A stretch of DNA of 20,292 nt, from the IMG/VR virus record IMGVR_UViG_3300046829_000052, positions 1-20,292 of that record; one strand, written 5' to 3'. Shown here one piece after another: positions 2,080-17,566 of this stretch. The DNA comes from a virus. The notes below the pieces were generated by a model, which had not been told where the DNA came from, did no database searches, and worked only from the letters and a program-made list of their open reading frames with translations. Each line of letters starts with the position of its first letter. Within the stretch, counting starts at the first letter, position 1. Both the position numbers and the translations under genes were made by a program.

Positions 2080-2766
2080 TTAGGTTGAACGCACCGCGCT
2101 TTCAGCGAGATTCATTTGCAGGCGATAGTTCGGGTCAAACTGCTTGCGCTGCATCAAATCTTCAAGTCCTTGCTCGTATTCCATTTGCGCGTCAAGTGTC
2201 TTTTCGTTTTTGCTGCCATAGGCGAACTTGAAAATCTTGGAATTCATCCCGGCAACAATCGTGTTGTGTCCCCACGGAGGAATTAGAGGAACAGCGTCAT
2301 TCACTGAGTCGCTGGCCGGATTGGGCATTCCCCATCCAACAATAAAAGCGTTGTAAGCCAAATCAGGAGGGTCAATGCGAATGAGTTTGTAATCTCCAGC
2401 ATCCATCGTGTAGCGACTTGGCGCTGCATTCATCGTGTTCAGCGTCATCTCAATAAGTGTTTCCGGGTCAAACACCGGAGTGAGTTCGGACTTCTGTAAA
2501 GGATTAGGAGTAAGAATCACCGTCAACTTTGTTATCTCATCAACGGCAATCTCAGCCAGAGTAGGAAAGAGAGCGGCGTTTGTCAGATCGTAGGTTGGCG
2601 TTCCAACCGTCAGAGAGAAGTTGACCAGGATGCGTCTCCACCAGAACCTTTGACGCTTGGCAATGTCCTGCACCACAAAACGATAGAGACTCTGAAGGTT
2701 TAGAACCTTCTCGCCCTTGCGCTCAGTAAGCTGGTTCGAGAGTTCGATTATTTCTGACCTTTGCAC
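2080..2766 (-). CDS. Head-to-tail adaptor (gp4/gp11-like)
   Basis: A 228-residue protein. It starts at GTG with a clear GAGGAG ribosome site 7 nt upstream that lies inside the end of the epimerase gene; the two genes overlap by 44 bp. The N-terminus (MQRSEIIELSNQLTERKGEK) is helical, and the middle carries a segment like RYTMDAGDYKLIRIDPPD followed by a short strand pattern, which is typical of podovirus adaptor proteins (gp11/gp4-type) that dock under the portal ring. A C-terminal helix with charged residues follows. The neighbour downstream is a large tail-like protein starting immediately after its stop, which fits the usual order portal-capsid-adaptor-tail, except that a sugar cassette intervenes. 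Assignment rests on motif feel, length and context. Confidence 0.62.
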   Translation of the reverse strand: MQRSEIIELSNQLTERKGEKVLNLQSLYRFVVQDIAKRQRFWWRRILVNFSLTVGTPTYDLTNAALFPTLAEIAVDEITKLTVILTPNPLQKSELTPVFDPETLIEMTLNTMNAAPSRYTMDAGDYKLIRIDPPDLAYNAFIVGWGMPNPASDSVNDAVPLIPPWGHNTIVAGMNSKIFKFAYGSKNEKTLDAQMEYEQGLEDLMQRKQFDPNYRLQMNLAESAVRST

Positions 2767-3721
2767 TTACTTGCTCCTCAATCCACGTATACGTCTTTTT
2801 CAATCCTTCCTTGAGTGAGACTTCCGGCTTCCAGTTAGGCAAAACCATTCTAGCCAGCGTGTTATCCGAGTTCCGGCCACGGACTCCCGTTGCGCCGTCC
2901 ACGTGATTCAGTTTCACGGGATACTCGGCAATGCATGCAAGCATCGTGGCCAGCTCGTCCACGCTAACCGTGTTGTCGTTCCCGATATTTACCGCTCCGC
3001 GATGATTCGAGGCCATCAGAGCAACCAATCCCTTAACTACATCCGATATGTAGATGAAAGATCGCCTGCATTGCCCGTCGCCCCATACTTCGATTTCATT
3101 TGCGCCTTGCATCTTGGCAATCGCTATTTTGCGAGAAAGTGCCGCAGGAGCCTTTTCCCGCCCTCCTTCCCAAGTCTCCTCCGGACCGTAGACGTTGTGA
3201 AAGCGGGTGATTCGTGTTTCAAGACCGTAGTCTTTCTGGTAGTGCTCGCAAAGTTTCTCCGTGGTGAGCTTGCCCCAGCCGTAAGCTGCTTCCGGCAGGG
3301 CCGGGTAAACTTCATGCTCCTTGAGAGCAGCGGCGTGCGGAGTCTCCTGGTTGTATTCCGGGTAGACGCAGGCAGAGGAAGAGAACAGGAACTTCCCCAC
3401 TTTCGCGTTCTTGGCTGCTTCAATCATGTTTAGATCAATGAGCAGCGAGTTGTGCAGAATCTCCGCATGATGCGTGGTAATCCATCCGATGCCGCCCATG
3501 TCTGCCGCGAGATGGTAAACCTCGTCCATGTCGCGCACCGCAGCTTCGCAGTTCTCGTAACTGCGAAGGTCTGAGCAATAATCGTATTCAGACGCTACGC
3601 TGGTAGAGAACTCTGGCGCTTTGATGTCTACTGCTCTGACGTGATGGCCGCTCTCAACTAAGTGGCGGACGAGATGGTGGCCAATGAATCCGCCTCCACC
3701 CGCGACAAGGATATTTGACAT
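2723..3721 (-). CDS. GDP-mannose 3,5-epimerase-like NAD-dependent sugar epimerase
   Basis: A 332-residue short-chain dehydrogenase/epimerase. The nucleotide-binding loop GGGGFIG is at residues 8-14. SSSACVYPE places Cys118, YGWGK gives the Tyr147/Lys151 pair, and GGREKAPAA gives Lys190. The spacings Cys to Tyr (29) and Tyr to second Lys (43) equal those of plant GDP-mannose 3,5-epimerase (Cys145, Tyr174, Lys178, Lys217), where the Cys and second Lys are the acid/base pair. That enzyme converts GDP-D-mannose to GDP-L-galactose or GDP-L-gulose in the cytoplasm. All catalytic residues are present and the length is near normal, so the enzyme should be active. It starts at ATG with GAGGAG 11 nt upstream, overlaps the glycosyltransferase before it by 64 bp, and likely feeds a sugar donor to the neighbouring transferases. 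A related sugar-nucleotide epimerase is the alternative. Confidence 0.86.
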   Translation of the reverse strand: MSNILVAGGGGFIGHHLVRHLVESGHHVRAVDIKAPEFSTSVASEYDYCSDLRSYENCEAAVRDMDEVYHLAADMGGIGWITTHHAEILHNSLLIDLNMIEAAKNAKVGKFLFSSSACVYPEYNQETPHAAALKEHEVYPALPEAAYGWGKLTTEKLCEHYQKDYGLETRITRFHNVYGPEETWEGGREKAPAALSRKIAIAKMQGANEIEVWGDGQCRRSFIYISDVVKGLVALMASNHRGAVNIGNDNTVSVDELATMLACIAEYPVKLNHVDGATGVRGRNSDNTLARMVLPNWKPEVSLKEGLKKTYTWIEEQVSAKVRNNRTLEPAY

Positions 3722-4629
3722 TTTCTGAATATCTCCTCGAAACGAAGTTCCATGCGGTTGGCATTCGCAACCACCGAAGGATTGATGGTTACATTTGCAC
3801 GGCGAATCATTTCAGCGCATTGATATGCACCTTCATAGGGAAGGTAGCCTCCAAGCAAATCTACGGGCTGTTTCGGGGCTACAAGAATGCAGCCACAAGC
3901 CATGCTCTCCAGCACCTTCGCTACCAGCACGTTGGATAGGCTGGGGAAGGTGACAAACACTTTGATGCGGCGGTAAGTCTCTGCTAGAAGTTCCATCGAG
4001 CGGCGGATATTCAGACCATCCGCATCCCACACACCGATAGCAGGGATAAGGCCACGCTCCGATTGGCAAGCGGTCATGTACTTTATTTTTATGTCGCCAA
4101 GGTGCGGGGTCAGTTCCTCGACAAACCTCTGGCGCTTGGGATACATCAGGCCGATGAAAGCTATGTCTATGTCGCGGCGTGCCTCTCCATATCCCGGTTC
4201 GTAATCGGTCTTAAAAATATGAGTGTCCACGCCTAGCGGAAGGAAAGTCCCTTTGTACTTCTCCGCGTCTGCTCTGTCAGGAAAGAAGTGGAAGTCGAAC
4301 ATGCCTTCGAAGTTCGCGTAGTCGAGCGAGTAATCCTCGCGCACGAAGCTTTCGTGGTACCATCCTATCTTCGGGCATTTCAGCTTGTTCCAGCCGTGAT
4401 AGAAGTGCTGAATCCATTTTCTGAGATGCTCAGGACCGGAAACAATCACCACGTCGCAATCTTCTATCGGCTTGTTTACCTTGTCGGCGAGTTCCTGTGT
4501 AACCTGCGTGACTGGAGGAATGGCGATTGCTGTAACTTCATGCCCCATGTGTCGCAGCACGTCTGCAAAGCCTTCGCATTGCACCCATCCAGCAAAAGGT
4601 GAGTCTGAGTAGAACGCCGCTATCTTCAT
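3658..4629 (-). CDS. GT-B type glycosyltransferase (CgeB-like)
   Basis: A 323-residue protein. The N-terminus (MKIAAFYSDSPFAGW) looks like the first strand of a GT-B fold; further on are a WYHESF segment, FLPLGVDTHIF (the loop between the two domains, as in GT4/CgeB proteins), a second-domain strand DIDIAFIGLMYPKR and a late VLESMACGCILVAPK motif. The last is the acidic nucleotide-sugar binding motif of GT-B enzymes. No signal peptide or membrane segment is visible, so it acts in the cytoplasm. It overlaps the methyltransferase upstream by 4 bp (ATGA) and the epimerase downstream by 64 bp. The donor could be the GDP-sugar made by the epimerase, but that is inference; the acceptor is unknown. 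Confidence 0.8.
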   Translation of the reverse strand: MKIAAFYSDSPFAGWVQCEGFADVLRHMGHEVTAIAIPPVTQVTQELADKVNKPIEDCDVVIVSGPEHLRKWIQHFYHGWNKLKCPKIGWYHESFVREDYSLDYANFEGMFDFHFFPDRADAEKYKGTFLPLGVDTHIFKTDYEPGYGEARRDIDIAFIGLMYPKRQRFVEELTPHLGDIKIKYMTACQSERGLIPAIGVWDADGLNIRRSMELLAETYRRIKVFVTFPSLSNVLVAKVLESMACGCILVAPKQPVDLLGGYLPYEGAYQCAEMIRRANVTINPSVVANANRMELRFEEIFRKCQISLSRVEADSLATISSAT

Positions 4630-5120
4630 TGAATCTCCGCCATTCCAAAACTTCCCGGCCAGTACTTCACTTTGCGGCCTGTCTGCTTTACAAAGGCTTC
4701 TACCGCTAGACGCACGCCGGGGTAATCAGGAGCTTCGGTATCATGGACAAAGATGCGCTTGGCCTTTGGTCCGAAGGCTTTCAAGTCGGATAGCGCCCCT
4801 TCGTAGGAGTGGTCTCCGTCCACGAATAAGACTTCGTATTCTTTGGCCAGTAGTTGTTTAATATCGGCATCTGCCACTGAATCAGCCCGGATGAAATGCC
4901 AGTTAGGATGTCCGGAGAAGATAGAGCAATTTTCAATGTCCACGGAGGTAAGATGGCCTCCATGCTCCTCGATTCCTGCCAGCAGAGCGGACGTGGAGCA
5001 TCCGGAACGAACGCCGATTTCCATGCAGTTTCCTTTGGCTGCGGCGTAGAGACGTGGCAGATGATCTTGAATGTCTGACCAGTTCTTGAGGTGATATTCA
5101 TATTTCGGCTTAGCCGACAA
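4626..5120 (-). CDS. Class I SAM methyltransferase (Methyltransf_24/CmcI-like)
   Basis: The frame is open from an ATG at 5297, but the first ~59 codons of that version lie antiphase inside the preceding glycosyltransferase and do not look like protein. A TTG at 5120, 7 nt after GGAG and overlapping the upstream stop, gives a 164-residue protein whose sequence looks genuine from the first residues. Motif I is MEIGVRSGCSTSALLAGI, followed by an acidic post-I strand (TSVDIE), and then VLFVDGDHSYEGALSDL, which is characteristic of the Methyltransf_24 family of O-methyltransferases with a metal-binding Asp/His. Set among glycosyltransferases, it may methylate a sugar, as such enzymes do in capsule and glycan clusters. 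Start codon choice is the main uncertainty. Confidence 0.75.
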   Translation of the reverse strand: MSAKPKYEYHLKNWSDIQDHLPRLYAAAKGNCMEIGVRSGCSTSALLAGIEEHGGHLTSVDIENCSIFSGHPNWHFIRADSVADADIKQLLAKEYEVLFVDGDHSYEGALSDLKAFGPKAKRIFVHDTEAPDYPGVRLAVEAFVKQTGRKVKYWPGSFGMAEIQ

Positions 5121-6090
5121 ATTGAATCTCCGCTTCCAGTTTCGGCTGCGTCTTGTATGTGCCTTCGCGCTTGGCGCGTTCAATGCACAAATCCCGGTAA
5201 GGAACGAAGTCCTTGATGCCGAAAGGATAGGCTCCCAAGTGTCCTGGCTGAATGCTAGTGTCCACGTATACGGGAATGTCGCAATACTTCTTGGCAATAA
5301 CGCAGAAAGTCACATCTTCGCCCATCTCAATGTCGCCGAATGGCGTAGGCAGGAAGCGGAACCAGTAGCATATTTTGTCTGCATCGAACTTGGCGACCCG
5401 GGCCGCTTTGACCTTTTCCACGCGCTCAGGGGGCATATGGTAGAAGTCTTTCTCCCACGCGCAGTCAAAATAGGCTTGGCCTACCTGTTCCAATGCGTGC
5501 CGCGAGAGCAGCATCAACCCGGTGCCTACGGCGTCCACTTCGATTAGCTGGTTCTCCGGCCATTCCCAGATTTGACGGGTAGTGCCATCTTCCTTGTTGT
5601 AGAAGCGGATATTCGGCACAGGGGGATCATTCCGGCGCGTACAAAGCCCTGCCACGATGTCTTTCTTGTGGGCCAAGAGCTTCAGTAGTGCCTCTGGTTC
5701 CACTACAATGTCATCGTCAATGAAAAGAACGTGGCTCCAGGGCTTACCGCTCTTGATCTGCTCTCCGACAAGCCAGTTGCGCGACCAGTGGACAACCGAA
5801 GAGGAACATGGCGGTCCGGCATAAACCGTTGCCAAGCCTGATTTATTGGTCAGTTCGCACATGGCCAAGAGAGCGTTTTTCATCTCCGGTTCAGGCACGC
5901 GGTAGGTTGGGCAAAGAATCGCTACAATGGGCTTGTCTTTGGGCTGCTCGGGAGCATCCACAATTTCCACGTCAACGCCTAACTTCTTGAGAGCTTCCCG
6001 CCCATAGGGGTTAAGCAAGAGTTGCTTGGCTCGTTTTTCCCAGCCGGTCAATTTACGTCCCTTCCCTGTGCGGCGGAAACGGTTATCCAA
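5110..6090 (-). CDS. GT-A glycosyltransferase with DDD motif
   Basis: A 326-residue protein. After a basic N-terminal stretch comes KPIVAILCPTYRVPEPEM (about 53-70), the first strand of a GT-A fold, then HVLFIDDDIVVEPEAL with the metal- and nucleotide-binding Asp triplet at 125-127. A later DAVGTGLMLLSRHALEQ resembles the acceptor-side strand of GT2-like enzymes, and GEDVTFC supplies a late acidic ED pair. No membrane helix is visible, so it is soluble. It starts at TTG, 10 nt after GGAGG, inside the end of the zinc-ribbon gene (43-bp overlap). Together with two other transferases it points to stepwise glycan building or modification during the late phase. Confidence 0.82.
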   Translation of the reverse strand: MDNRFRRTGKGRKLTGWEKRAKQLLLNPYGREALKKLGVDVEIVDAPEQPKDKPIVAILCPTYRVPEPEMKNALLAMCELTNKSGLATVYAGPPCSSSVVHWSRNWLVGEQIKSGKPWSHVLFIDDDIVVEPEALLKLLAHKKDIVAGLCTRRNDPPVPNIRFYNKEDGTTRQIWEWPENQLIEVDAVGTGLMLLSRHALEQVGQAYFDCAWEKDFYHMPPERVEKVKAARVAKFDADKICYWFRFLPTPFGDIEMGEDVTFCVIAKKYCDIPVYVDTSIQPGHLGAYPFGIKDFVPYRDLCIERAKREGTYKTQPKLEAEIQFVG

Positions 6091-6473
6091 TTAGCGATTT
6101 CCTCCGCTTTTCGGAGCGCAGCCGCTAGTTCTACTTGGTCCATTGGAGTGGTGCGGCGTTCTTTGCGCTTCTTGGCGGTGGCCCTTTCCTGAGCTAACCG
6201 TTCCTCTTCCGTGGCCTGCATGAGCCGCTGTTCCTGCTCGGCCCTGTATTCCGGCTTGCGTTCGTAAATCAGGCCGTCCTTGTCGTACTTCTTTTCGTAC
6301 TCGTTCGGGTGAGCTTCCCAGCCCATCCACGGCTTTTTGTCGCTAGGGTCCGTGACCTTATCGAAAGAATCGGGAGCACATTGCGGGCACTCATCCGGTA
6401 ACTGGACGTTCTTTTCTGTCCAGCGGGAACGGACTCGCGGGCCTTCTGTTTTACAGTTCGAGCAGGTAGCCAT
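6048..6473 (-). CDS. Small zinc-ribbon and coiled-coil protein
   Basis: A 141-residue protein with two Cys pairs, CSNC at residues 4-7 and CPQC at about 29-32, giving a four-Cys zinc ribbon, followed by a long highly charged helix (residues ~60-115, rich in Glu, Lys, Arg and Gln) that should form a coiled coil. The start overlaps the previous stop as TAATG; the end overlaps the next gene by 43 bp. The family is not one I recognise. Such proteins in late operons may be assembly helpers or minor virion proteins; the function is unknown. Confidence 0.7.
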   Translation of the reverse strand: MATCSNCKTEGPRVRSRWTEKNVQLPDECPQCAPDSFDKVTDPSDKKPWMGWEAHPNEYEKKYDKDGLIYERKPEYRAEQEQRLMQATEEERLAQERATAKKRKERRTTPMDQVELAAALRKAEEIANWITVSAAQGRDVN

Positions 6474-6970
6474 TAGGCCGAGACAGACACCTTCGCCGTC
6501 TTTTGCTGCTTCACTTGATTTAACAATTCATTTCGCTCATTTTCGAGACGTTGCTCCCGAGCTTTGAGAGACATTTCCTTAATCTCAAGTTGCTGGCTCT
6601 GGCTGAGCCATGCCACTTCCCATTGACCTTGCGAGCAGAATCCGCCCTTCTTGTCGAGCCAGTATTGCTGTTGCGGGTCGGTAGTCGAGAATCGCCCGCG
6701 AACAAATTCCACGTATCCCTCTCCTATCATCTTCACCTGGTCGCCTTCCATGACTTTCTGGGGAGGAGGGATGTTGCATATGCGGGTACGTCCGTCTCTC
6801 TTGGAGTCCATTCCGCCGCGCTCGGGATGGCCTGGGTCTGTAGGGGCATCGGCCAACAGATACTCCTTGAGTTCGACAATGTGATTGCTCAATCCGTCTG
6901 TGCAAGTCCAGTCACCAGCCTTGAATTCCTTATCGCAAATTACGCATTTGAACTTCTGAACGCTGCTCAT
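6473..6970 (-). CDS. Zinc-finger protein with C-terminal coiled coil, unknown function
   Basis: A 165-residue protein. It starts with FKCVICDKEFKAGDWTC, a CxxC pair plus later Cys and His (SNHIVE) residues that could bind zinc. The middle contains short beta-like segments (YVEFVRGRFSTTDPQQQYWLD); the last 45 residues are a charged helix with Glu, Arg, Asn and Gln repeats, predicted coiled coil. GGAG lies 4 nt before the ATG. It runs in the same direction as the following zinc-ribbon gene and shares the same plan (metal site first, coiled coil last), so the two may act together. Not recognised as a named family. Confidence 0.7.
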   Translation of the reverse strand: MSSVQKFKCVICDKEFKAGDWTCTDGLSNHIVELKEYLLADAPTDPGHPERGGMDSKRDGRTRICNIPPPQKVMEGDQVKMIGEGYVEFVRGRFSTTDPQQQYWLDKKGGFCSQGQWEVAWLSQSQQLEIKEMSLKAREQRLENERNELLNQVKQQKTAKVSVSA

Positions 6971-6979
6971 ATTGCTCCT

Positions 6980-7519
6980 TCACGTATAGTAGTGATACAT
7001 CACTTCTGGAACGTAGTGCTCCGTAGAAACGATTTGTAAATTTCGAAGAGCGGCAGCCCATCGCGCATCTTCGCCGCGTCCTCCTTCCATTGGAACTTTC
7101 AACGCCAACTCCCGGCGCATTGGACCAAGATGGGATATATCGCAATAATAGCCTTTGTCATCGTTCGACCATGTTTTGTGTCGAAGGGAAATGGATGTCC
7201 GCAAAGTAGGCTCATACACTCCGTTGCGGTAAACCGCCGCCTGAAAGCCCACGAAGTCCACGCCATCAAGCAAGGGATAAATCTTGGCGACGTAATCCTC
7301 TGCGACCAAATCATCATCATCCACGAAATTGACGTACTCAGCGGATGACTTTTGGCGTAAAACTTCTCGGTTTTGTCCGAGGGAAATATTGGGATCGTGC
7401 TCATGCACCAGAATCTCCACGTCTGGATACTTATCAACTTGCGGCCGAAGCATTGTTAGTAATCGGTTCAGAATCCAGCAACGCTCCGGCATCGTCAGAA
7501 TGAGGATTTCCCATTTCAT
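6980..7519 (-). CDS. Small GT2-like glycosyltransferase
   Basis: A 179-residue GT-A domain, short for the family. It begins MKWEILILTMPER, the usual first strand; YVNFVDDDDLVAEDYV gives the metal-binding acidic motif at 67-70, and GGRGEDARWAAAL supplies the ED catalytic-base motif (150-151) seen in GT2 enzymes. There is no membrane segment and no C-terminal acceptor domain, so it probably needs a simple acceptor or works with the other transferases. AAGGAG sits directly against the ATG, an unusually tight spacing. It is the first gene after the terminator-like hairpin that follows the capsid gene and opens the sugar cassette. Confidence 0.82.
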   Translation of the reverse strand: MKWEILILTMPERCWILNRLLTMLRPQVDKYPDVEILVHEHDPNISLGQNREVLRQKSSAEYVNFVDDDDLVAEDYVAKIYPLLDGVDFVGFQAAVYRNGVYEPTLRTSISLRHKTWSNDDKGYYCDISHLGPMRRELALKVPMEGGRGEDARWAAALRNLQIVSTEHYVPEVMYHYYT

Positions 7520-7563: not shown

Positions 7564-8772
7564 TTAACTGTAAGCCGACAAATCAAATAGCCAAGCGTGT
7601 TTGCGCTCGTGCCGGATTTCCCAGCCGATTTGCGAGCGATATTCATCCGTGCGAGTTGTCGAGCCGTCAGGCAGGATGTTCTCGTACAGCTTGGTATCGC
7701 CGATGAGGTTGTCTCCGCCGCCTTGCAGGTAGCGAATCGCTACGCTAGGCAGGTCGATGGAGTAGGCATGCGAAGCGAAGTTATTGCCGGTGGAGTAGCC
7801 AACATCGCCAGTCCCCAGCCGGTAGTCATTCGCCAGCATGAATTCCCCAAGCGCCATCTCGAAACGAGCAATCTTCACTCCGAAAACAGTATCGCCCACG
7901 CGCGTGAGCAATTTGTTCTGAGAGTAGAAGTTGAGCGCCGAAATGACCTTTGGAGCGCAAAGCAGCAGCTTCTGCTTTTCTCCATAACGGAATGCCGTCT
8001 CTGAGAACGTGTTCCACGTGGTGATCGTTGCCGTGGTCGAGGCGTCCGTCTTGTTCGTGGCGATGCGCGACAAGAATCCCATCGTTGTCCAGCGCGAGCT
8101 GGGCAATGCCAGAGACTCTGAAGCGCGGCTCCACAAGCCAGCACCTTCGATTTCCGAGCGGTGCCGGATTAACGCTTTGACGAGCTGATACTTCCGCTCC
8201 CCTTGTGGCGCTCCGTACTGCTTGGTCGAAGCTGCGGTGTGCGTGACCTTGACCGGCGTCTTGAAGATTTGGGCGTAGCTGATCTGCACGGTTTTTGCCG
8301 TGTATCGCTGTTGCCCGATGTTGTCATCTTCCTTGAACGCCGATGCGAGAACGCGAAGCGAGCCAGTGGCTGGCACGGTGTCTGCTCCAGAGCCTCCGAC
8401 GCCTCGCGTAATGGTCAGGGTGTTGGTGGAAATGGCAGTGACGAGAAACACTTCAGGAGCGGCGGACGAGGACTGCGCTTTAGGCACAGCCACTATATCC
8501 CCTACTCCGAAGATGGTCCCATCCGCCACTAGGATGTTGGTTGCAACCGAAGTGTAATCTACCGTCTGTGAAGAGTATCCCCACAGTGAAACTTCCGTGT
8601 CCTCAACCCACTCAAAGCGCGGGCCGATGGTCGGCTGCTTCCTCTTGGCTGCGTTCGTGAGCACAAACAGCGGAGCCGCATCGGGTTCGAGCAATACCAT
8701 CTGTTCGGACACGTCGCGGACGTTGGTTGTGTCAGTTACGAATTGGTCGAAACTGCGTGAAACCTGTAACAC
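7564..8772 (-). CDS. Major capsid protein (SU10/DUF5309-like)
   Basis: A 402-residue protein. It starts at GTG with AAGGAG 7 nt upstream. The N-terminal region has RDVSEQMVLLEPDAAPLFVL and later FEWVEDTEVSLWGY, and the centre has QRYTAKTVQISYAQIFKTPV and an AASTKQYGAP segment, which match my recollection of the SU10-type capsid fold with a Gly/Thr-rich insertion domain (residues ~75-145). A C-terminal segment (YENILPDGSTTRTDEYRSQIGWEIRH, cited in part) looks like the capsid-forming end. Length, position after the scaffold-like gene and strong ribosome site fit the most highly made protein. It forms the icosahedral shell. Family assignment rests on recognition, not on a search. Confidence 0.85.
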   Translation of the reverse strand: MLQVSRSFDQFVTDTTNVRDVSEQMVLLEPDAAPLFVLTNAAKRKQPTIGPRFEWVEDTEVSLWGYSSQTVDYTSVATNILVADGTIFGVGDIVAVPKAQSSSAAPEVFLVTAISTNTLTITRGVGGSGADTVPATGSLRVLASAFKEDDNIGQQRYTAKTVQISYAQIFKTPVKVTHTAASTKQYGAPQGERKYQLVKALIRHRSEIEGAGLWSRASESLALPSSRWTTMGFLSRIATNKTDASTTATITTWNTFSETAFRYGEKQKLLLCAPKVISALNFYSQNKLLTRVGDTVFGVKIARFEMALGEFMLANDYRLGTGDVGYSTGNNFASHAYSIDLPSVAIRYLQGGGDNLIGDTKLYENILPDGSTTRTDEYRSQIGWEIRHERKHAWLFDLSAYS

Positions 8773-10548: not shown

Positions 10549-12769
10549 TGTTCACGCCTTTCGTCATTGGTGTTTTCGGGCTTGGCTCGGGATCGTCCAC
10601 GCTCTTTTCGCTCATCAGATTGTCAGCATGATTAGAGGCTTCTGACATCTTCGCTATGCCCTTCAGCGTGTCGGTAATCTGCAATTCTTGTTGCGCCGCT
10701 GGATCTAATGGCTGGCCAGTGGCTGACTGGAATAATGCCGCTTGCACGGAGGCTGGCGGATCAATCTTCCCGGTCAAGTTGATGTTGACCTTGGGCGGCG
10801 GAGGAGTCGGCGGCTTTGGCGGAGGAACGGCCTTGTCCGCATCAATTCCACGAATCGTACTGGCATAGAAATGCGCCGCATAGTACGGGTCAATAACGCT
10901 TGGCATCTGTCCGGCTGCGGTCAGAAGTTGCAGCGCGGCGTTTCTGCGAATGTCATCGTCAACTGAAAGCATGGACATCGCCGCTGGCTCGACTTGAATC
11001 TCTTGCTGAAGTTCCATGAAGTCGAGTTTGGCTACCGAGGCTTTGCCATACCTCTGTGTCAAACCCTCTACCTGACCAGTATATTTTCCTGGAATTTGAT
11101 AGGGCTTGTAGCCTCCCTGACCATCCTCTTCAGGTTCCGTCTGTTGGAGCATAGCTAGTTTCTTCTCGCCAGATTCCTTCAAGTACCAGTTGAGCGAGTC
11201 AATCTCGAATTGCGTCAGAGCGTCCGCTGATTTAGCTGCGAGAACCGCAGTAGTAGCTGTCTTGCCTGCTTGCGGGTTGGAATCTGTCCCCGTCTCGACG
11301 TTTGTCAGGTTAGGTTCGGCCAGCGCCATCATCCTCATGGTCTGAGCTTCTTCTTCGTTTGCTGCAGAAATGGCCGTTCCAATCTGCGGGCTTTCTATCA
11401 TCGGCTGGAGAGCATCGGGGTCGCGCATGTAGATTATGCGCATCAGCACACGGTCTACCTGCTCATCGGGAATGTCGGTCCCAGTCTTAGCTTTCATCAA
11501 TGGCCGGAGAATGTTCGCTACGAGGTCGCGGCGGCTGCCTACAATCGCGTTATGCAAGAGCCACTGATGCCTAAGCAGGAGCGGAGTCGAATCGCCATAC
11601 GCTGAAAGCAGGTCAAACATCGGAACGAGTTCCGTGTAGCAGTACTTCCCGTACAAGTCCCACGGATACGGCATCTTGCCGAGATAAACCTTCTCGTTTC
11701 CTATCCACTCAATCCAGAACTTGCCTTCCTTGTCCTTGGTGTGGCATTCGAGAATGTCGTATCGCTTACCTCGCAGAAGTTTCGTGGGCCAAAGTGGCAA
11801 AGTCTGGCCCAGCGAGTTGGTGCGGAGGCGACTGCGGAGATCGAAAGGCTGCTGCTGATAAATAGGCTGCCAGCTCGGCATGTCGGCCAATTCCTTGGCT
11901 GCCTTCTCATCAAAGATAGGCTGCTCTTCGCCGTCATCGTCCATGTACGTCTTGGACAGCATCTTTTTCAGCCAGACATCCGATTCCCAATAGTTCTCGA
12001 CGCACCAGCCGGATACGTTCAGGCTTGCCGCGCCAGGCTCCATGAAGAAGTCGCCTATGAATACGTTCTTGCTGACGGGGCCTTCAAACTGGCTGATCTT
12101 CTGAGGAAGCTGAGTAGTGTTTCCGTACTTGGCGATAGCGTTTGATTTCTCGTCATCGCTCAGCGGGTCATCTCCGCCTGGCTGTGTGGCATCAAGAGTT
12201 CTTAGGTCTCCTCGGCTGAGTTGGTCTACGGAACGGAAGAACTGCTTGTTCTGCTCTACCGTGTCCCAATAGAGCTTCGAAACGCCCCAGCCAAAGGTCT
12301 GCGCTGAAGCTACCAGCCTCCTGTGCTCTTGCGACTCTCCAGACCTGTCAAACTGCAAGTAAGACCATGCCGTAAGCCGTTCACCAAGAGCGGTATCCCC
12401 ACCATCTGGCACTGTGTAATTGATTTGCGGTGGATTGGCCGTAAGCCGCGCCGTCTTGCGCCGGATAATCAGGCTGAGTTCCGGCATCGCTACGTTGGTA
12501 CGTGTCCTGTCTTCGACGCTGTTTCCTGTCTTGTCCGTAACCATGATGGGCTTGGTGCGGCACTTTGACGCGCGGAATACGTCCTCCCACATATCCCAAT
12601 AGTTGATTTGCATATAACGGCGGGATTCGTTGCGGCGGTCTAGAATGTCCGCGACGTGCGTGGCATCTTGTGAAGCCTTGGACTTGCGCTGCTTCTTTTT
12701 GCCCGCAGCTTCAGGTGTCTGAGGATTTTGCGGAGGGATTTGGGGGATGCCAGGAATGCCAGTGGACAC
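10523..12769 (-). CDS. Portal protein (P22-like size)
   Basis: A 748-residue protein. It starts at GTG overlapping the TAG of the terminase nuclease gene (TAGTG). Features include a Pro-rich leader, MQINYWDMWEDVFRASKCRT near residue 55, then a long helical and strand region with many Trp residues, and a C-terminal region with a Pro/Lys-rich segment (PPPKPPTPPPPKVNIN) before a helical tail. Size near that of P22 gp1 and position between terminase and scaffold identify it as the dodecameric ring at the capsid vertex through which DNA enters and to which the large terminase binds. No protease fusion is seen. The C-terminus may be longer if the following frame is reached by frameshifting. Confidence 0.85.
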   Translation of the reverse strand: MSTGIPGIPQIPPQNPQTPEAAGKKKQRKSKASQDATHVADILDRRNESRRYMQINYWDMWEDVFRASKCRTKPIMVTDKTGNSVEDRTRTNVAMPELSLIIRRKTARLTANPPQINYTVPDGGDTALGERLTAWSYLQFDRSGESQEHRRLVASAQTFGWGVSKLYWDTVEQNKQFFRSVDQLSRGDLRTLDATQPGGDDPLSDDEKSNAIAKYGNTTQLPQKISQFEGPVSKNVFIGDFFMEPGAASLNVSGWCVENYWESDVWLKKMLSKTYMDDDGEEQPIFDEKAAKELADMPSWQPIYQQQPFDLRSRLRTNSLGQTLPLWPTKLLRGKRYDILECHTKDKEGKFWIEWIGNEKVYLGKMPYPWDLYGKYCYTELVPMFDLLSAYGDSTPLLLRHQWLLHNAIVGSRRDLVANILRPLMKAKTGTDIPDEQVDRVLMRIIYMRDPDALQPMIESPQIGTAISAANEEEAQTMRMMALAEPNLTNVETGTDSNPQAGKTATTAVLAAKSADALTQFEIDSLNWYLKESGEKKLAMLQQTEPEEDGQGGYKPYQIPGKYTGQVEGLTQRYGKASVAKLDFMELQQEIQVEPAAMSMLSVDDDIRRNAALQLLTAAGQMPSVIDPYYAAHFYASTIRGIDADKAVPPPKPPTPPPPKVNINLTGKIDPPASVQAALFQSATGQPLDPAAQQELQITDTLKGIAKMSEASNHADNLMSEKSVDDPEPSPKTPMTKGVNNPSPTKAR

Positions 12770-13710
12770 TAGTAATTTACTCCAACGTGCATCGGCTTCC
12801 AGGTGCTAGTCATCTTCCGCTCTTTGATGTACTCAGGCTCGCTCATCGCCAAATATTTCAAACAATCAGAAAGGTGATTCCGCTTGCTCTGCGCTTTCCC
12901 AGTGGGGTCGCTGCGTTCCGCCATGATAGGGGTTAGCTGCTGAAAACGGTTCGTCTTTAGTTCGTGAATCAATTCTGGACAACGGTCTTGGAAGATGTGG
13001 AGCTTGCTTTTCGGCTTGAAGCTGCCATCCTCTTGTTCCACATCTCGCGGCTTCAGCCATTCGTTGACCTTCTCCGGCCCCGCCAAGTTGTCCTTGATAC
13101 AGTCCTTGAATTTCCAACCGCCAAGCTCCTCGAAGCGCTTCTGGAAGTTGTATTCCGGCTTTTCATCGAAGAAGCCCTGCCCCATCGCCCGCGCCGCATA
13201 GTCAATCACCCGCGTGTAGATGTCTTCGTCCTTGCCTTCGTTTTCGGGGTTGTCTGCGCTTTCAAGCCACTTGACCGTTTCGACGTACTGCTTGATTGAA
13301 AAACGGTTGTCATCCTCAGGTACGTTTCCCCGTTGACCGTAAATCTTCGAGGGCCATAACTCCCGATAAGCCCATCCATCTCCCCACTGGTCAATGGCGA
13401 GCCAAAGGGAAGCGTGCGGCACAACCGGGTGTGGATCAAGGGCGTAATATCTGGTCCAACTAGGAGGTATGGGGAAGCTGTTTTCGAGTGTGGCCTCTTC
13501 ATGGAGCTGGTAGATAAGCGTGCCAAGCTTTGCGCTGAAGTTAATCTCGTATTCTTGCTCATAGTCTGCCTCATTCGTCATCGCCGCCTTTTGCTTGGCT
13601 GCCCATTCCGCTGTCTTGTCCGGGTCCGCGCTGTAGTGCAGGCGGAAGATGCTGATGCCGTGCTGGTTGCGCCAAGTCTGAACGCCTTGATGCGGGAACT
13701 CGATGTTCAC
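12769..13710 (-). CDS. terL: Large terminase, C-terminal part (end of ATPase domain plus nuclease)
   Basis: A 313-residue protein. It starts at GTG, overlapping the previous stop as GTGA. The first 65 residues (TWRNQHGISIFRLHYSADPD, then a YEQEYEINF segment) correspond to the last part of a terminase ATPase domain. The RNase H-like nuclease follows, with Asp92 in YALDPHP, Asp170 in RVIDYAARAM and Asp282 in HLSDCLKYL as the likely metal-binding triad. It therefore lacks Walker A and Walker B, which lie in the separate gene at 16657-17337; together they make about 539 residues, a full terminase. In-frame sequence upstream contains stops within 60-80 bp and no terminase-like residues, so it must be translated separately. 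It would cut and help drive DNA into the portal with the other piece. Confidence 0.88.
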   Translation of the reverse strand: MNIEFPHQGVQTWRNQHGISIFRLHYSADPDKTAEWAAKQKAAMTNEADYEQEYEINFSAKLGTLIYQLHEEATLENSFPIPPSWTRYYALDPHPVVPHASLWLAIDQWGDGWAYRELWPSKIYGQRGNVPEDDNRFSIKQYVETVKWLESADNPENEGKDEDIYTRVIDYAARAMGQGFFDEKPEYNFQKRFEELGGWKFKDCIKDNLAGPEKVNEWLKPRDVEQEDGSFKPKSKLHIFQDRCPELIHELKTNRFQQLTPIMAERSDPTGKAQSKRNHLSDCLKYLAMSEPEYIKERKMTSTWKPMHVGVNY

Positions 13711-13883
13711 GAGCCAGTGATGATGCCGTGTTGCACGACCGCTGCGGTAACATGCTGGCTTAAGTCGGCGTCAGCCGTTTTAGCCGCTGCCACTGCGTTG
13801 GCTTCCGTGGTGGCGCTGACTACGACAGCCTTGGCTGCGGTGCCACGCTTGCTGATATAAGTCACTCGATAAAGGTCTGCCAT
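13707..13883 (-). CDS. 58-residue protein, unknown function
   Basis: The start at ATG 13883 has GGAG 6 nt upstream, formed by the last codons of the preceding gene. It reads MADLYRVTYISKRGT and then an Ala/Val-rich helical stretch (SATTEANAVAAAKTAD), ending HGIITGS. The stop overlaps the GTG of the terminase nuclease gene, so it couples translation into that gene. No family recognised; the small beta-then-helix layout resembles short phage head or tail accessory proteins. Confidence 0.65.
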   Translation of the reverse strand: MADLYRVTYISKRGTAAKAVVVSATTEANAVAAAKTADADLSQHVTAAVVQHGIITGS

Positions 13884-13884
13884 G

Positions 13885-14289
13885 TCACTCTCCGTAAAAA
13901 GCTGAACCAAGCCCCTTGCGCTTCGGCTTGGTTGTTGCTACCGGTCCCAATCCCGGCAAAGACTGCCCTACTTGCCTATTCGCTAGATTCGCCATTGCGC
14001 TGTTCTGAACAGGCAGGAAACTACCCGCTGCTGGCGCTCCGCCTCCTGCTTTGACTCGCGCCATGCTCGCCTGCACAGGAGCCGTATGAGCACTTGCCCC
14101 CATGAGCTGAGACTTCGAGTTTCGTGGCCGAGGTGCAACCTGACCAGCACCCCTATGCGCTTCATTCGTCGTTTTGTTGTGCCCACCCTTTTCAGGCATA
14201 TTCATAAATGGGCGGTTGCCGCTGTAATCTCCAGGGATTGCCCCTGTCTCAGCCGCTGGAACCCCTGATCGTGTGCGTTTATTCGCCAT
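13885..14289 (-). CDS. Disordered basic protein ending SAFYGE
   Basis: The sequence is open upstream, but the ATG at 14289, overlapping the previous stop, gives 134 residues starting MANKRTRSGVPAAETG. It is rich in Ala, Gly, Pro, Asn, Lys and Arg, with no clear fold: mostly disordered. A Lys/Arg patch (KPKRK) precedes the C-terminal SAFYGE tail, shared with two other genes of the block. The codons for that tail (TTT TAC GGA GAG) also serve as the ribosome site for the next gene. Function unknown; virion or DNA-associated protein is possible. Confidence 0.68.
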   Translation of the reverse strand: MANKRTRSGVPAAETGAIPGDYSGNRPFMNMPEKGGHNKTTNEAHRGAGQVAPRPRNSKSQLMGASAHTAPVQASMARVKAGGGAPAAGSFLPVQNSAMANLANRQVGQSLPGLGPVATTKPKRKGLGSAFYGE

Positions 14290-14680
14290 AGAAACTCGCA
14301 TTTCTGCGGGAAGGGAATCCCGCGCCATTCGGTCTGTGTTTCTTAGGGAATTGTGTGCCCATCCGGCCATTGACCTGACCACTCTGATTCGGGAGCTTTG
14401 AGTACCCTACCGCTCCGCCAGATGGCAAAGCCCTTGCGCCAGGAGAAGAGTGTTGGAGGTTGGCGTATGGCTTGCTCACTGGCCCAGGTTGTGCTCCCTT
14501 CGGCCCTTTGTTCGCCGAAGTAGTCGCTGCCCCACCAGTATTATTGAATGGCTGTGTAGCTCGTCCTTTCAGACGCTTCTCCAAATCCAGCGACGTTTCC
14601 TTGGCATCGTTCAATATTGGCGCTTTAGGCGTCATCGCTGTCTTGGAGCCGGTTATCGGCATCCCGCGAACCTTTTTCAT
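14279..14680 (-). CDS. Disordered Gly/Pro-rich protein ending ASFYGE
   Basis: A 133-residue protein. It starts at ATG with GGAG 8 nt upstream and overlaps the phosphatase stop by 4 bp (ATGA). It contains Lys/Arg with many Gly, Pro, Ser and Asn, no hydrophobic core, and a C-terminus RRNASFYGE that matches the tail of its neighbours. Probably intrinsically disordered; likely related in design to the following gene, with which it overlaps by 11 bp. No recognised family. Confidence 0.68.
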   Translation of the reverse strand: MKKVRGMPITGSKTAMTPKAPILNDAKETSLDLEKRLKGRATQPFNNTGGAATTSANKGPKGAQPGPVSKPYANLQHSSPGARALPSGGAVGYSKLPNQSGQVNGRMGTQFPKKHRPNGAGFPSRRNASFYGE

Positions 14681-15204
14681 AGTTCTATCTCCTTCACTTC
14701 TCCTGCTTTACCACCAACCATCGGAACCTTGGCCGCGTTTCCGCCCTTCTTTACATAATCATGGGCTAAACTGTGCTGCGAATGCCCAACAATCGCTTCT
14801 CCTGGCTTTACGGTCTTCATAAACTTGCTATACCGAGTCAATACGGCGTTCTTCGACTCACCGCCAGGAACCGGCCGATCGGGACGCGAGCTGAAGAAGT
14901 CCAGCAGCGGCTTGATTGAAGCTGTCTTTGCCCCGCTCATGCTGCCCAGCTTCCACGGCTCAAGCTCGGAATGGACCTCAACCGGTGCTCCTGTGGCCTT
15001 GCTGATATGCTTGGCTGTCTCTAAAGCTCGTTGTCGCGGGGAACTGTGAATCTTCGTGATTCCCTTGCCCTTTAGTCCTTTGGCGATGCTTTTGGCCTTG
15101 TAGCGCCCTGATTCGCTGAGTGGTGGGTCAAGGTGCCCGTGGATGCGCCCTTCACGGTCTAATTTTGTCTCTGGGTGGGTAATGAGCCACGCTTTATGTG
15201 CCAT
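14677..15204 (-). CDS. Histidine phosphatase (phosphoglycerate mutase-like) with altered RHG motif
   Basis: A 175-residue protein. The usual first motif RHG is THP here (His10 in WLITHPET), keeping the phosphate-accepting His but losing its neighbouring Arg. Other family marks are present: SSPRQRALETA with Arg59, an acidic ELEPWKLGSMSG near 80-91, and VGHSQ with His141. The family removes phosphate from small molecules, nucleotides or proteins in the cytoplasm. Whether the Thr-for-Arg change leaves activity is uncertain. It overlaps both neighbours by 4-11 bp within the block between the terminase halves. Substrate unknown. Confidence 0.82.
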   Translation of the reverse strand: MAHKAWLITHPETKLDREGRIHGHLDPPLSESGRYKAKSIAKGLKGKGITKIHSSPRQRALETAKHISKATGAPVEVHSELEPWKLGSMSGAKTASIKPLLDFFSSRPDRPVPGGESKNAVLTRYSKFMKTVKPGEAIVGHSQHSLAHDYVKKGGNAAKVPMVGGKAGEVKEIEL

Positions 15205-15352
15205 AGAACGCTGATTTCTTAGGCTTTACCTTCTCAGGCAGCTTTTTCCTCTTTGTTGCTTGGTCCCACTCTTTGACGCCAGCCTCGCCAAGCGCCTTGT
15301 GGCCTGACGGACTATTCACCCAGCGCAACTGAGCCTTGCTCTTAGCTGGCAT
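15194..15352 (-). CDS. Small basic protein ending SAFYGT
   Basis: Too short to be obvious, but clear: ATG at 15352 overlaps the previous stop (TAATG), and the TAA lies inside the next gene's start. It encodes 52 residues beginning MPAKSKAQLRWVNSPSGHKA and ending in a Lys-rich LPEKVKPKKSAFYGT. Similar MPAKSKAQ-starting phage proteins are familiar as unknown small basic proteins. The C-terminal FYG tail follows a basic patch, as in two later genes. Likely nucleic acid-binding or virion-associated; function unknown. Confidence 0.7.
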   Translation of the reverse strand: MPAKSKAQLRWVNSPSGHKALGEAGVKEWDQATKRKKLPEKVKPKKSAFYGT

Positions 15353-15555
15353 TAGAATTGCCTAGCGCCGCGTTCCTTGACATACTCACAGGTTCCGCAG
15401 GAGAACAGTTTAACTCCCTTGTCAGGCTCAAACAGGTTGCAACAGCCGAGACGCTTGCTGATACCGCCAGAGACCTTGACCCGCACGCAGTCGCCATCTT
15501 TCTGAGCACCGGGCAACTCCATGTAGCCTGCAATCTTAGAGTCAACGCGGTCCAC
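15352..15555 (-). CDS. Small Cys-rich protein, possible zinc or Fe-S site
   Basis: A 67-residue version starts at GTG 15555 with no good ribosome site; an internal ATG (about 11 codons later) is an alternative. Key residues are DGDCVRVKV, RLGCCNLFEP and FSCGTCEYVKE, giving five Cys in a C-x(n)-CC-x(n)-CxxC arrangement that suggests a metal site. The stop overlaps the next start. No recognised family or role. Confidence 0.6.
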   Translation of the reverse strand: MDRVDSKIAGYMELPGAQKDGDCVRVKVSGGISKRLGCCNLFEPDKGVKLFSCGTCEYVKERGARQF

Positions 15556-15640
15556 TCAGGCACCATTGGATTGCTTCTTCCCAAGAGTTGAAGCGAATCA
15601 TCGTCCTCCCGCGCGGTGACATCGCGCACCATAGGCCCAT
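15542..15640 (-). CDS. Possible micro-gene filling the gap before the Cys-rich gene
   Basis: In 15556-15659 no large gene is present. One minus-strand frame encodes MIRFNSWEEAIQWCLSGPR from ATG 15601, with GGGAGG only 3 nt before it, or 32 residues from ATG 15640. It overlaps the next start by a few bases, as do true neighbours here. The evidence is weak: short length and poor spacing. Confidence 0.25.
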   Translation of the reverse strand: MGLWCAMSPRGRTMIRFNSWEEAIQWCLSGPR

Positions 15641-15659
15641 CAGCTTGAATACACTCCAC

Positions 15660-16202
15660 TTATACCGTCTGTCCATGTGGCTGATACTTCGGAGGCTTGG
15701 GACTGGGTTTCTCCCGCATCATCGAGAATCGAGTGTAGGCGCAGACTCGCTTTGGCACCAGATCATCCCCCACCTTCTCAAATAGCGTGAGTCTTTGGCT
15801 GGCAGCTTCGCCGATAGGTACCACAAGACGACCTCCGGCTGATAGCTGCTCAATCCACGCCTTAGGGATGCTCTCAACCCCGCAGGTAACAACAATGGCC
15901 GTGAAGGGTGCTTGCTTAGGGATGCCATTCTTGCCATCTCCTGTATGCAAAAAGACACAATCTCCTATGATGACCGTACTATCCACCCACGGCTCCAGCT
16001 CAATGCTGTGTACCTCTGCGCCAGTTGCGCCAAACTCGCTTGTCTGTGTCCCTGAGCCTGTGCCAATCTCCAACACCTTGTCTTGCGGCCCAAGAGCTAA
16101 CATCTGGCGAATCAGCGCTCTGCATTCAGGGCTGGGTATCGTGCGGCGGCCGTCAAAGGTGGGCGGAATGGCTTTTACGCCTTGATGCGTTATAACACTC
16201 AA
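15660..16202 (-). CDS. PCMT-like protein methyltransferase (isoaspartate repair type)
   Basis: A 180-residue protein. The start is TTG at 16202 with AGGAG 11 nt upstream, inside the homing endonuclease gene (50-bp overlap). It has IPPTFDGRRTIPSPECRALI near the start, in the place of the family's SQP-type segment, and motif I VLEIGTGSGTQTSEF at 43-57 followed by an acidic strand (VHSIELE), which match protein-L-isoaspartate O-methyltransferases. These use SAM to repair damaged Asp/Asn residues. The protein is shorter than typical bacterial enzymes (about 205-220). Repair or modification of virion proteins is possible; another small-molecule O-methyltransferase is the alternative. Confidence 0.78.
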   Translation of the reverse strand: MSVITHQGVKAIPPTFDGRRTIPSPECRALIRQMLALGPQDKVLEIGTGSGTQTSEFGATGAEVHSIELEPWVDSTVIIGDCVFLHTGDGKNGIPKQAPFTAIVVTCGVESIPKAWIEQLSAGGRLVVPIGEAASQRLTLFEKVGDDLVPKRVCAYTRFSMMREKPSPKPPKYQPHGQTV

Positions 16203-16626
16203 TGCAGCGCGCTCTCCTGAAAGCCTTCTTGACGATAGAGAATGGTTCGCGGCAAGAAACGCAGAAAGATGAGTTCTTTACTCGCGTCGGGCGGAATTTC
16301 TGTAAGGCTTCGAGGACAGTCCGAATCTGTGATTGCCTTCGTTCGCCCATGAAGGGAAGCAATTCCAGGCAGAGAGATTCCACCACAAGATGTCTGGCTA
16401 CGTTTACCGTCCATGCCGTCTTGCGAATGCCAGGAACGTGCGTCATTTGATACAGCTTCGCATCTGGACCCAAGATGCGCTGCGCCTTTTGTGCCACATC
16501 CAAATCCGTGGTTGCCACTCGAACAGCAAAGCGATACGCCCCAGTCTTGGCAGTATTCGGCCTCGCCGTGAAACTTCCTTCGCCCTCCAAGTATCCGGCC
16601 AACCATGCTAATTGTTCTCTGTCCAT
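16153..16626 (-). CDS. LAGLIDADG homing endonuclease with C-terminal zinc finger
   Basis: A 157-residue protein starting MDREQLAWLAGYLEGEGSF: LAGYLEGEG is a single LAGLIDADG helix with the catalytic acidic residue, so the enzyme would act as a dimer. A basic segment and then two CxxC pairs (CVSC and CIEC, about 33 residues apart) form a zinc-binding tail likely used for DNA contact. It lies directly after the stop of the terminase ATPase gene, which is a common insertion position for mobile homing endonucleases, and has no ribosome site; a strong extended -10 8 nt upstream suggests a leaderless transcript. Probably the agent that split the terminase gene, though that is inference. Confidence 0.83.
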   Translation of the reverse strand: MDREQLAWLAGYLEGEGSFTARPNTAKTGAYRFAVRVATTDLDVAQKAQRILGPDAKLYQMTHVPGIRKTAWTVNVARHLVVESLCLELLPFMGERRQSQIRTVLEALQKFRPTRVKNSSFCVSCREPFSIVKKAFRRARCIECYNASRRKSHSAHL

Positions 16627-16634
16627 AGACGCGC

Positions 16635-16643
16635 ATTATAGCA
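16635..16643 (-). promoter_or_regulatory. Extended -10 promoter for the homing endonuclease
   Basis: The minus strand reads TGCTATAAT, a consensus -10 with TGn extension, 8 nt before the ATG of the endonuclease gene. No good -35 is seen, which an extended -10 can do without. The start point would fall at or next to the ATG, giving a leaderless mRNA; the gene has no Shine-Dalgarno. Confidence 0.5.
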
Positions 16644-16656
16644 CAACCTGCGCTAT
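16638..16656 (-). other. Hairpin directly after the terminase N-part stop
   Basis: Immediately after the TAG stop, ATAGCGCA-GGT-TGTGCTAT forms an 8-bp stem (one G-U pair) with a 3-base loop. It overlaps the -10 element. There is no T run, so it is not a typical terminator. It could mark an insertion boundary or protect the upstream mRNA. Confidence 0.5.
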
Positions 16657-17337
16657 CTATTGTGAGCATTGATCCGCGAACCACCCTGGACCCGCAGAAC
16701 TAACTGCAATCATTTGAACGTGTGGCGAAGAGGCTTTAGCTGAGTTATAGCATTGCTCCGCCTCGGGAAGAAACGCCGCTTCGTCCATAATGAATATTGT
16801 GGGATGGTACGTTCTGATTTGATGCTCTCCGCCAGGGACGGCTAATATCCGACCGCCATGCTCCCAATTGATCTCCGTCGCGTTAGCACTCTTGATGGGA
16901 TGTTTAGCCCTAAGCCAGTCCGGCTGATTACGGTACAGGCAGGCGGCATAGCCAATCAACTCCATCGCCTTGCCTTCCTTCATGGTCTGAACCACAGCGA
17001 ACGCTTTCTTCCATTGCGCCTGGTGCGTACCCCAGATGAGAGCACTCCAGCTCGTCATCATATCCCGTGATTTCGGTACGAATAGCTTGTCTTCTTGAGC
17101 AAAAGCATCAAATAGTAGCCGAAAATACGATTTCTTAGGGAATGGACTGCGAAATTCAAGACCTTGGGCCTCGTAGTGAGGATTCTCTGTGCAGGTCCAG
17201 TGCTGGGCCCAATACAGCGGGTCACGCTTGCAGCGTTCATCCCTGATTGCTTCCAAGCCCTGCTGACTCAACAAGTCGTTCAGCTTCGGCGAGTTGTTCA
17301 TCTGTGAGTCTTGAGGCGTCAAAGATGATGTGCTCAA
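16657..17337 (-). CDS. terL: Large terminase, N-terminal part (ATPase)
   Basis: A 226-residue protein. The start is TTG at 17337 (AAGGA 5 nt upstream), inside the small terminase gene; ATG 17301 is an alternative without ribosome site. Residues 87-97 VPKSRDMMTSW form the Walker A-like loop (Lys89, Arg91), PTIFIMDEAAFLPEA carries Walker B with Asp185/Glu186, and MIAVSSAG gives the coupling motif with Ser213/Ser214. It stops 12 residues later at CSQ, mid-way through the ATPase domain; the remaining part and the nuclease are in the gene at 12769-13710. It powers DNA packaging with that partner and the small terminase. The hairpin and endonuclease follow directly. Confidence 0.88.
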   Translation of the reverse strand: MSTSSLTPQDSQMNNSPKLNDLLSQQGLEAIRDERCKRDPLYWAQHWTCTENPHYEAQGLEFRSPFPKKSYFRLLFDAFAQEDKLFVPKSRDMMTSWSALIWGTHQAQWKKAFAVVQTMKEGKAMELIGYAACLYRNQPDWLRAKHPIKSANATEINWEHGGRILAVPGGEHQIRTYHPTIFIMDEAAFLPEAEQCYNSAKASSPHVQMIAVSSAGPGWFADQCSQ

Positions 17338-17566
17338 TATGTCCTTCTAATTTAAGGGTTTCTGTGGCTTTTCCATAACGCCATTCGACCCATTTATGGG
17401 CCATAGCTCCTGCGACTTGTGGCTGCTTCTTGTTGCTTAGTAGCCTGCAAATCAACCGCTCCATAGCTTCCGGCCCATTAGCTTTTATGATGTGCTTTTC
17501 GACGCGCTGGGCGAAGGCCCTCAGGTTGTCCAAGTCTTCGGCGTTGAGCCTTCCTCTAGTATCCAT
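17237..17566 (-). CDS. terS: Small terminase subunit
   Basis: A 109-residue protein. It is helical, with MERLICRLLSNKKQ and KWVEWRYGKATETLKLEGHI in the centre and SRLTDEQLAEAERLVESAGL at the end, the last being typical of small terminase C-termini that contact the large subunit. It directly precedes and overlaps the ATPase gene, as in most phages. It recognises the phage packaging site and regulates the large subunit. The ribosome site is weak, and a 14-bp palindrome lies just upstream. Confidence 0.75.
   Translation of the reverse strand: MDTRGRLNAEDLDNLRAFAQRVEKHIIKANGPEAMERLICRLLSNKKQPQVAGAMAHKWVEWRYGKATETLKLEGHIEHIIFDASRLTDEQLAEAERLVESAGLGSNQG

Follow-up and report, generated by a model that had tools for sequence, protein, structure and literature searches.

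One large terminase in two reading frames

The DNA analysed here (the window) is an entire IMG/VR virus record, IMGVR_UViG_3300046829_000052, of 20,292 bases, and probably represents a fragment. On its minus strand lie two open reading frames (ORFs) that encode the parts of one phage large terminase (TerL), the first its ATPase core (N-part), the second the remainder of the ATPase domain together with the nuclease (C-part); the ORF listing has both exactly where an initial annotation of this DNA had placed them (Table 1). The halves are 2.9 kilobases (kb) apart, separated by eight genes where eight to nine had been announced, and neither in the window nor in 84 of 90 related loci does one polypeptide contain both domains. 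TerL is a hallmark of tailed phages and herpesviruses and has been described as a single ATPase–nuclease chain (PMC12451611, PMC7824862).

The N-part, which starts with TTG, has an ATPase core of TerL-like fold with a Walker B and a coupling motif. It gives one weak match to PHROG 5989 'terminase large subunit' (expect value (E) = 2e-6) and a profile match to T4 gp17 (E = 7e-5), and its AlphaFold model (predicted local distance difference test (pLDDT) 87) finds T4 gp17 as the best fold match (template modelling (TM) score 0.71, E = 3e-11). Across 30 aligned N-parts, Asp185/Glu186 of Walker B and Ser213 of the coupling motif are invariant and Ser214 is nearly so, in line with the initial annotation, which had also listed a Walker A motif; this is present, as a deviant form (K89-S-R-D-M-M-T-S-W) rather than a classic P-loop, and its residues K89, R91, M93, S96 and W97 are invariant in the 30-row alignment. 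An ORF of 109 amino acids (17237-17566) overlaps the start of the N-part by about 100 nucleotides (nt) and lies where a small terminase would normally be expected; it has no PHROG match.

The C-part combines an RNase H-fold nuclease with an acidic triad, and the three residues singled out at the start, Asp92, Asp170 and Asp282, do not vary among 31 aligned C-parts. Library scans returned no PHROG or Pfam match for it; in hhalign its profile aligns with undivided viral terminases over their nuclease half (E = 2.6e-24), and its model, which is weaker (pLDDT 77), has a fold that matches those of D6E TerL (E = 6e-6) and of the nuclease domain of P22 TerL (TM 0.66 on the target). The nuclease is preceded by two strands that follow the ATPase core in single-ORF relatives. 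Judging from these relatives and from T4, whose subdomain limits we take as our guide to the contents of the C-part (last ATPase-core strand, transmission subdomain, nuclease), the last strand of the core and the transmission subdomain appear to reside in the C-part.

Eight scans, seven over viral contigs and the eighth over genome contigs, supplied the relatives, and 90 distinct loci remained after duplicates and rows with one half only were dropped. TerL is split in 84 of them and a single ORF in six, counts that are not frequencies in nature, the set having been picked by similarity to the split halves, and that include some less certain distant calls based on long overlapping frames (e.g. 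L182, L183). Recurrence in 84 distinct loci excludes chance or assembly error as the source of the window's split. In all 84 the break falls at one place, just past the coupling motif and within the ATPase domain, as initially proposed; in the window's clade the N-parts end ..SSAGPGWFGDQCSx-stop or ..SSDEIGWFHNECKR-stop, the same place to within a few codons, and this end position is kept even though the proteins are down to 38% identical. In T4 terms the break would lie directly after the coupling motif, a placement made by profile alignment and extended by eye; in T4 gp17 this motif sits where the two ATPase subdomains join (PMC3012670).

The proposal that the two parts together equal one terminase is borne out by the uninterrupted relatives, which the initial annotation had recommended looking for. 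In three of them (L171-L173) one ORF of 506-515 amino acids carries the N profile (to residue 207-210) followed by the C profile (from 218-220), with 9-10 residues between. Because the profiles are collinear in these intact genes, the halves make up one TerL apart from some ten residues, and since N and C occur together in one ORF there, the C-part is of the same terminase lineage as the N-part and not from a distinct one.

A single isolated phage, Rhodothermus phage RM378, was matched by the N-part (gp17, 22% identity), and the C-part had no match in 50,697 phage records; when isolated phages with a split TerL were sought, queries taken from further split loci and from a single-ORF locus returned distant terminases only. 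Phages Rollin and Hodr were considered as split-TerL isolates and rejected: the nuclease half alone matched, and their coding sequences are undivided (1434 and 1506 nt). A contig from an Acidobacteriota metagenome-assembled genome (L077), possibly a misbinned phage contig, carries a C-part that is 68% identical and gives no more than a hint of the host phylum. In L147, L148, L161, L167 and L180 the C-part frame measures 601-680 amino acids, the nuclease half being seemingly fused to an extra domain or gene.

The junctions between the halves bear on how the protein is made. Spacing among the 84 split loci ranges from abutting or overlapping halves (18 loci, <60 nt between profiles) through gaps of <1 kb (23 loci) to longer ones (43 loci). 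The GTG start of the window's C-part overlaps the stop of the preceding gene (GTGA), overlaps of this kind (GTGA, ATGA, CTGA) recur in many loci, and the bases right after the N-part often belong to another gene already, as in L007, L008 and L015, where the ATG of a methyltransferase gene falls within the last N-part codons. Where no genes intervene, the two ORFs either share four bases (ATGA or GTGA; L123, L141, L144, L177, L190, L194, L198) or otherwise lie close together, in frames 0, +1 and +2. Such stop/start overlaps in varying frames point to two coupled cistrons and are unlike splicing or frameshifting.

A self-splicing intron that holds the eight genes, with the halves as its exons, would make the locus another case like terL of ICP1 or Bastillevirinae; TerL introns are genuine in phages, with endonucleases common within them (PMC11878797, PMC10448857), and the few C-parts without a standard start codon would fit such an arrangement. 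We nevertheless regard it as improbable: Rfam scans found no family in the window, nor in 12700-17400 with permissive settings, and so give no sign of a group I or group II structure in the gap, though an intron of a novel class might escape them; what follows the N-part differs wholly from one relative to the next and in most cases already begins another gene; and C-part starts overlap stops, while abutting relatives leave no room for an intron. Hardly credible is a single chain still produced by programmed frameshifting or bypassing, or by split-intein joining. Where junctions are bare, the two ORFs touch or share a few bases, much as at frameshift sites, but the frame step takes three values among relatives rather than one and the window's gap is kilobases long; as to inteins, the N-part continues past the profile for a median of 3 residues and never for more than 27, which leaves no room for an intein half.

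Both halves are under purifying selection, with ratios of nonsynonymous to synonymous substitution (dN/dS) of 0.08 (N) and 0.09 (C) in L050/L051, the only tested pair with unsaturated synonymous sites in both halves. This selection and the invariant catalytic residues argue against a decaying or accessory terminase in a virus whose DNA is packaged by another protein, an explanation that could appeal to the absence of the C-part from library profiles and to the unproven completeness of the relatives' contigs, and that we consider as improbable as the intron. An intact terminase elsewhere, which the initial annotation had named as a refuting finding, was found in relatives neither by our own N and C profiles (four relatives of ~46 kb) nor by Pfam families (PF03237 in 8 records; PF17289, PF03354 and PF04466 in 18 records), whose one match was the C-part of L121. 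Taken alone, the Pfam result counts for little, since the same profiles also miss nearly all split halves, and our own profiles were therefore added. Judged by its conservation, the pair is functional and not a broken gene; most likely its members associate as a split enzyme, as first suggested, and the two chains would act as a motor.

Genes and a C-terminal motif between the halves

The gap of the window holds the methyltransferase, the phosphatase and the small basic proteins that had been reported in it (Table 1). In most close relatives the methyltransferase gene comes next after the N-part, its start overlapping the N-part stop where no endonuclease is present; in the window the homing endonuclease lies between the two, and among close relatives it was found in the window only, the gene clusters from related gaps containing nothing that corresponds to it. 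The starts of the seventh and eighth genes, read from the sequence and from relatives, are the most likely ones, and the family of the eighth (cluster cl7) comprises 6 loci with proteins of 57-62 amino acids. Gap cargo varies and reaches up to 5.3 kb, and in L094 it includes glycosyltransferase-like and epimerase genes. Between the capsid gene and the record end, the window also has a run of sugar-related genes (2723-7519; glycosyltransferase, nucleotide-sugar epimerase).

Table 1. The two TerL parts and the eight genes between them, in order from the N-part (aa, amino acids)
Feature	Position	Strand	Length (aa)	Basis and remarks
TerL N-part, ATPase core	16657..17337	-	226	Motifs, PHROG, profile, fold
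LAGLIDADG-type homing endonuclease	16153..16626	-		PF14528 (LAGLIDADG_3), E = 2.8e-6
PCMT-type methyltransferase	15660..16202	-		PF01135, E = 3.5e-29; cluster cl1, 21 loci
Protein with weak zinc-ribbon match	15352..15555	-	67	PF02150, E = 0.005, below cut-off
Basic protein	15194..15352	-	52	C-terminus FYGT
Histidine phosphatase superfamily protein	14677..15204	-		PF00300, E = 2.7e-26; cluster cl2, 11 loci
Basic low-complexity protein	14279..14680	-	133	C-terminus FYGE; cluster cl0, 33 loci, commonest cargo family
Basic protein	13885..14289	-	134	C-terminus FYGE; listed ORF from 14382, ATG 14289 inferred
Protein whose stop overlaps C-part start	13707..13883	-	58	Listed ORF from 13910, ATG 13883 inferred
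TerL C-part, end of ATPase domain and RNase H nuclease	12769..13710	-	313	D92, D170, D282

Many of the gap genes share a C-terminal motif. Within the window's clade, the gaps of 33 loci contain 209 genes, and 69 of these terminate in F-[YF]-[GS] followed by one to three residues; of 434 genes in the flanks, 3 do so (Fisher p = 7e-34, overstated since related loci are not independent). The three carriers in the window are small basic proteins of different families. The residue after the G of this tag is E, G, D, K or Q. Counted by reading frame, the tag occurs 79 times in gaps, 8 times in flanks and never on the opposite strand, and free variation of its codons (TTC/TTT 45/34, all four GGN) shows that it is maintained at the protein level. 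Within the tag codons lies an ATG usable as the next start in 24 of 79 cases; in the window, the ATG of the phosphatase falls within the FYGT codons of the preceding gene. Three of four genomes of 46-47 kb (L212-L220) have one more tagged gene elsewhere, far from the terminase (G001 5541-5873, G002 33334-33606, G003 8055-8303). The simplest guess is that the tag is a shared docking peptide.

Order of events

A tree was computed by a quick method from the joined N and C alignments, its root not being inferred. The window falls within a clade of 38 loci that all have at least 1.2 kb between the halves (SH-like approximate likelihood ratio test (SH-aLRT) 100). In the sister rows of this clade, L121 and L123, the space holds a single small ORF or is empty, the next group (21 loci) has little or nothing apart from one 2.2 kb exception, and the halves have nothing between them in L141, L144, L147, L190 and others. 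Bare-junction sisters beside a cargo clade of 38 indicate that splitting preceded cargo in the window's line. The single-ORF forms require three changes on the tree and may reflect fusion or independent fission, both of which an unrooted tree allows.

The endonucleases appear to have arrived last, after split and cargo. The initial annotation had rightly placed a homing endonuclease directly after the first half, and had likened it to mobE, which splits nrdA of Aeromonas phage Aeh1; besides the window, L005 (8666-9019) and L017 (4978-5415) have an Endonuclease_7 gene, unrelated to the LAGLIDADG gene, at the same spot. That such an insertion broke terL is very improbable all the same, and contradicted for this lineage, since the three arrivals are unrelated or differently placed and absent from most close relatives, split relatives exist with nothing between the halves, and in all three loci the endonuclease precedes the methyltransferase rather than marking the open terL end.

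The two halves also differ in their histories. N-parts of the window, L003 and L004 are only 60-64% identical to those of L007, L008 and L010, which are 73-85% identical among themselves, whereas the C-parts of the two sets are 87-92% identical. The first three form a clade in N (support 100/100); the C-tree grouping forced on N is rejected (approximately unbiased test, p-AU 2e-5), and the C data do not reject a tree that keeps these three as one group (p-AU 0.15). Either exchange of the N-half or its faster evolution would explain this mismatch. Nuclease genes have been described at genetic-exchange boundaries in other phages (PMC10448857).

A probable two-chain terminase and known systems

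Altogether, we consider it highly likely that this phage and a broad group of uncultured relatives have a two-gene TerL, best read as an obligate two-chain enzyme, in which terL is divided after the coupling motif into an ATPase-core cistron and an ATPase-end/nuclease cistron, and whose two chains would reassemble and package DNA. An ancestral terL would have been divided just past the coupling motif, one protein retaining the ATPase core and the other the end of the ATPase domain with the nuclease, the part that in T4 gp17 transmits the movement of the ATPase and grips and cuts DNA. Translational coupling on one message would yield both chains, which would reassemble without a covalent bond, the C-part strand GISIFRLHY probably completing the N-part sheet, and the complex would dock on the portal and package DNA. 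Unrelated genes would then have entered the junction in one descendant clade, nuclease genes last, at the N-part end.

Three observations weigh against this model. The C-parts of L003, L030 and L034 have no ATG, GTG or TTG at the homologous start and need CTG, which in L003 and L034 would come with a CTGA overlap. The relatives are contigs of unproven completeness, which leaves room for a second, very divergent TerL. Finally, T4 gp17, the best-studied motor of this kind, when cut at its linker, elsewhere than here, kept ATPase and nuclease activities and lost translocation (PMC3012670), which makes a lasting natural split surprising. In the open-licence literature we found no report of a two-chain phage TerL; introns, inteins and trans-splicing were found instead. 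If the model is true, a motor cut at the coupling motif can do without covalent linkage, and these phages offer a system with two natural components in which to study how ATPase action drives the grip on DNA. TerL searches that are based on single chains can miss whole phage groups, as the misses in libraries and phage records show. More speculatively, and with considerable doubt, we picture a tailed-phage group with a two-subunit motor, separately exchangeable halves (C ~90% alike, N ~61%) and an F-[YF]-G-x tag that docks basic proteins to motor, portal or capsid.

T4 gp17 and RM378 gp17 share with the split TerL the ATPase fold (as measured for T4 gp17), Walker B, the coupling motif and the RNase H nuclease; each is one chain, whereas here there are two, with a deviant Walker A. 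In ICP1 and Bastillevirinae, terL coding is likewise interrupted with nuclease genes nearby (PMC10448857, PMC11878797), but splicing restores one chain there, and the loci studied here bear no sign of an intron. Herpesvirus TerL is joined by splicing across an intron that contains 2-5 genes (PMC6466031), and mirusvirus TerL is trans-spliced from parts ~30 kb apart (PMC12768974); both resemble the window in having two pieces with other genes between, and differ in that eukaryotic RNA splicing yields one protein rather than two. Phage enzymes that work in two pieces are known as well, namely Aeh1 nrdA/mobE, the phage 25 DNA polymerase 43A/43B and the T4 topoisomerase 39/60 (PMC2988022), in which an essential enzyme is encoded as two ORFs equalling one normal protein. 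In Aeh1 the endonuclease insertion is thought to be causal, while here it is late; and these are other enzymes, whereas the TerL split is common to a large group and its gap collects genes.

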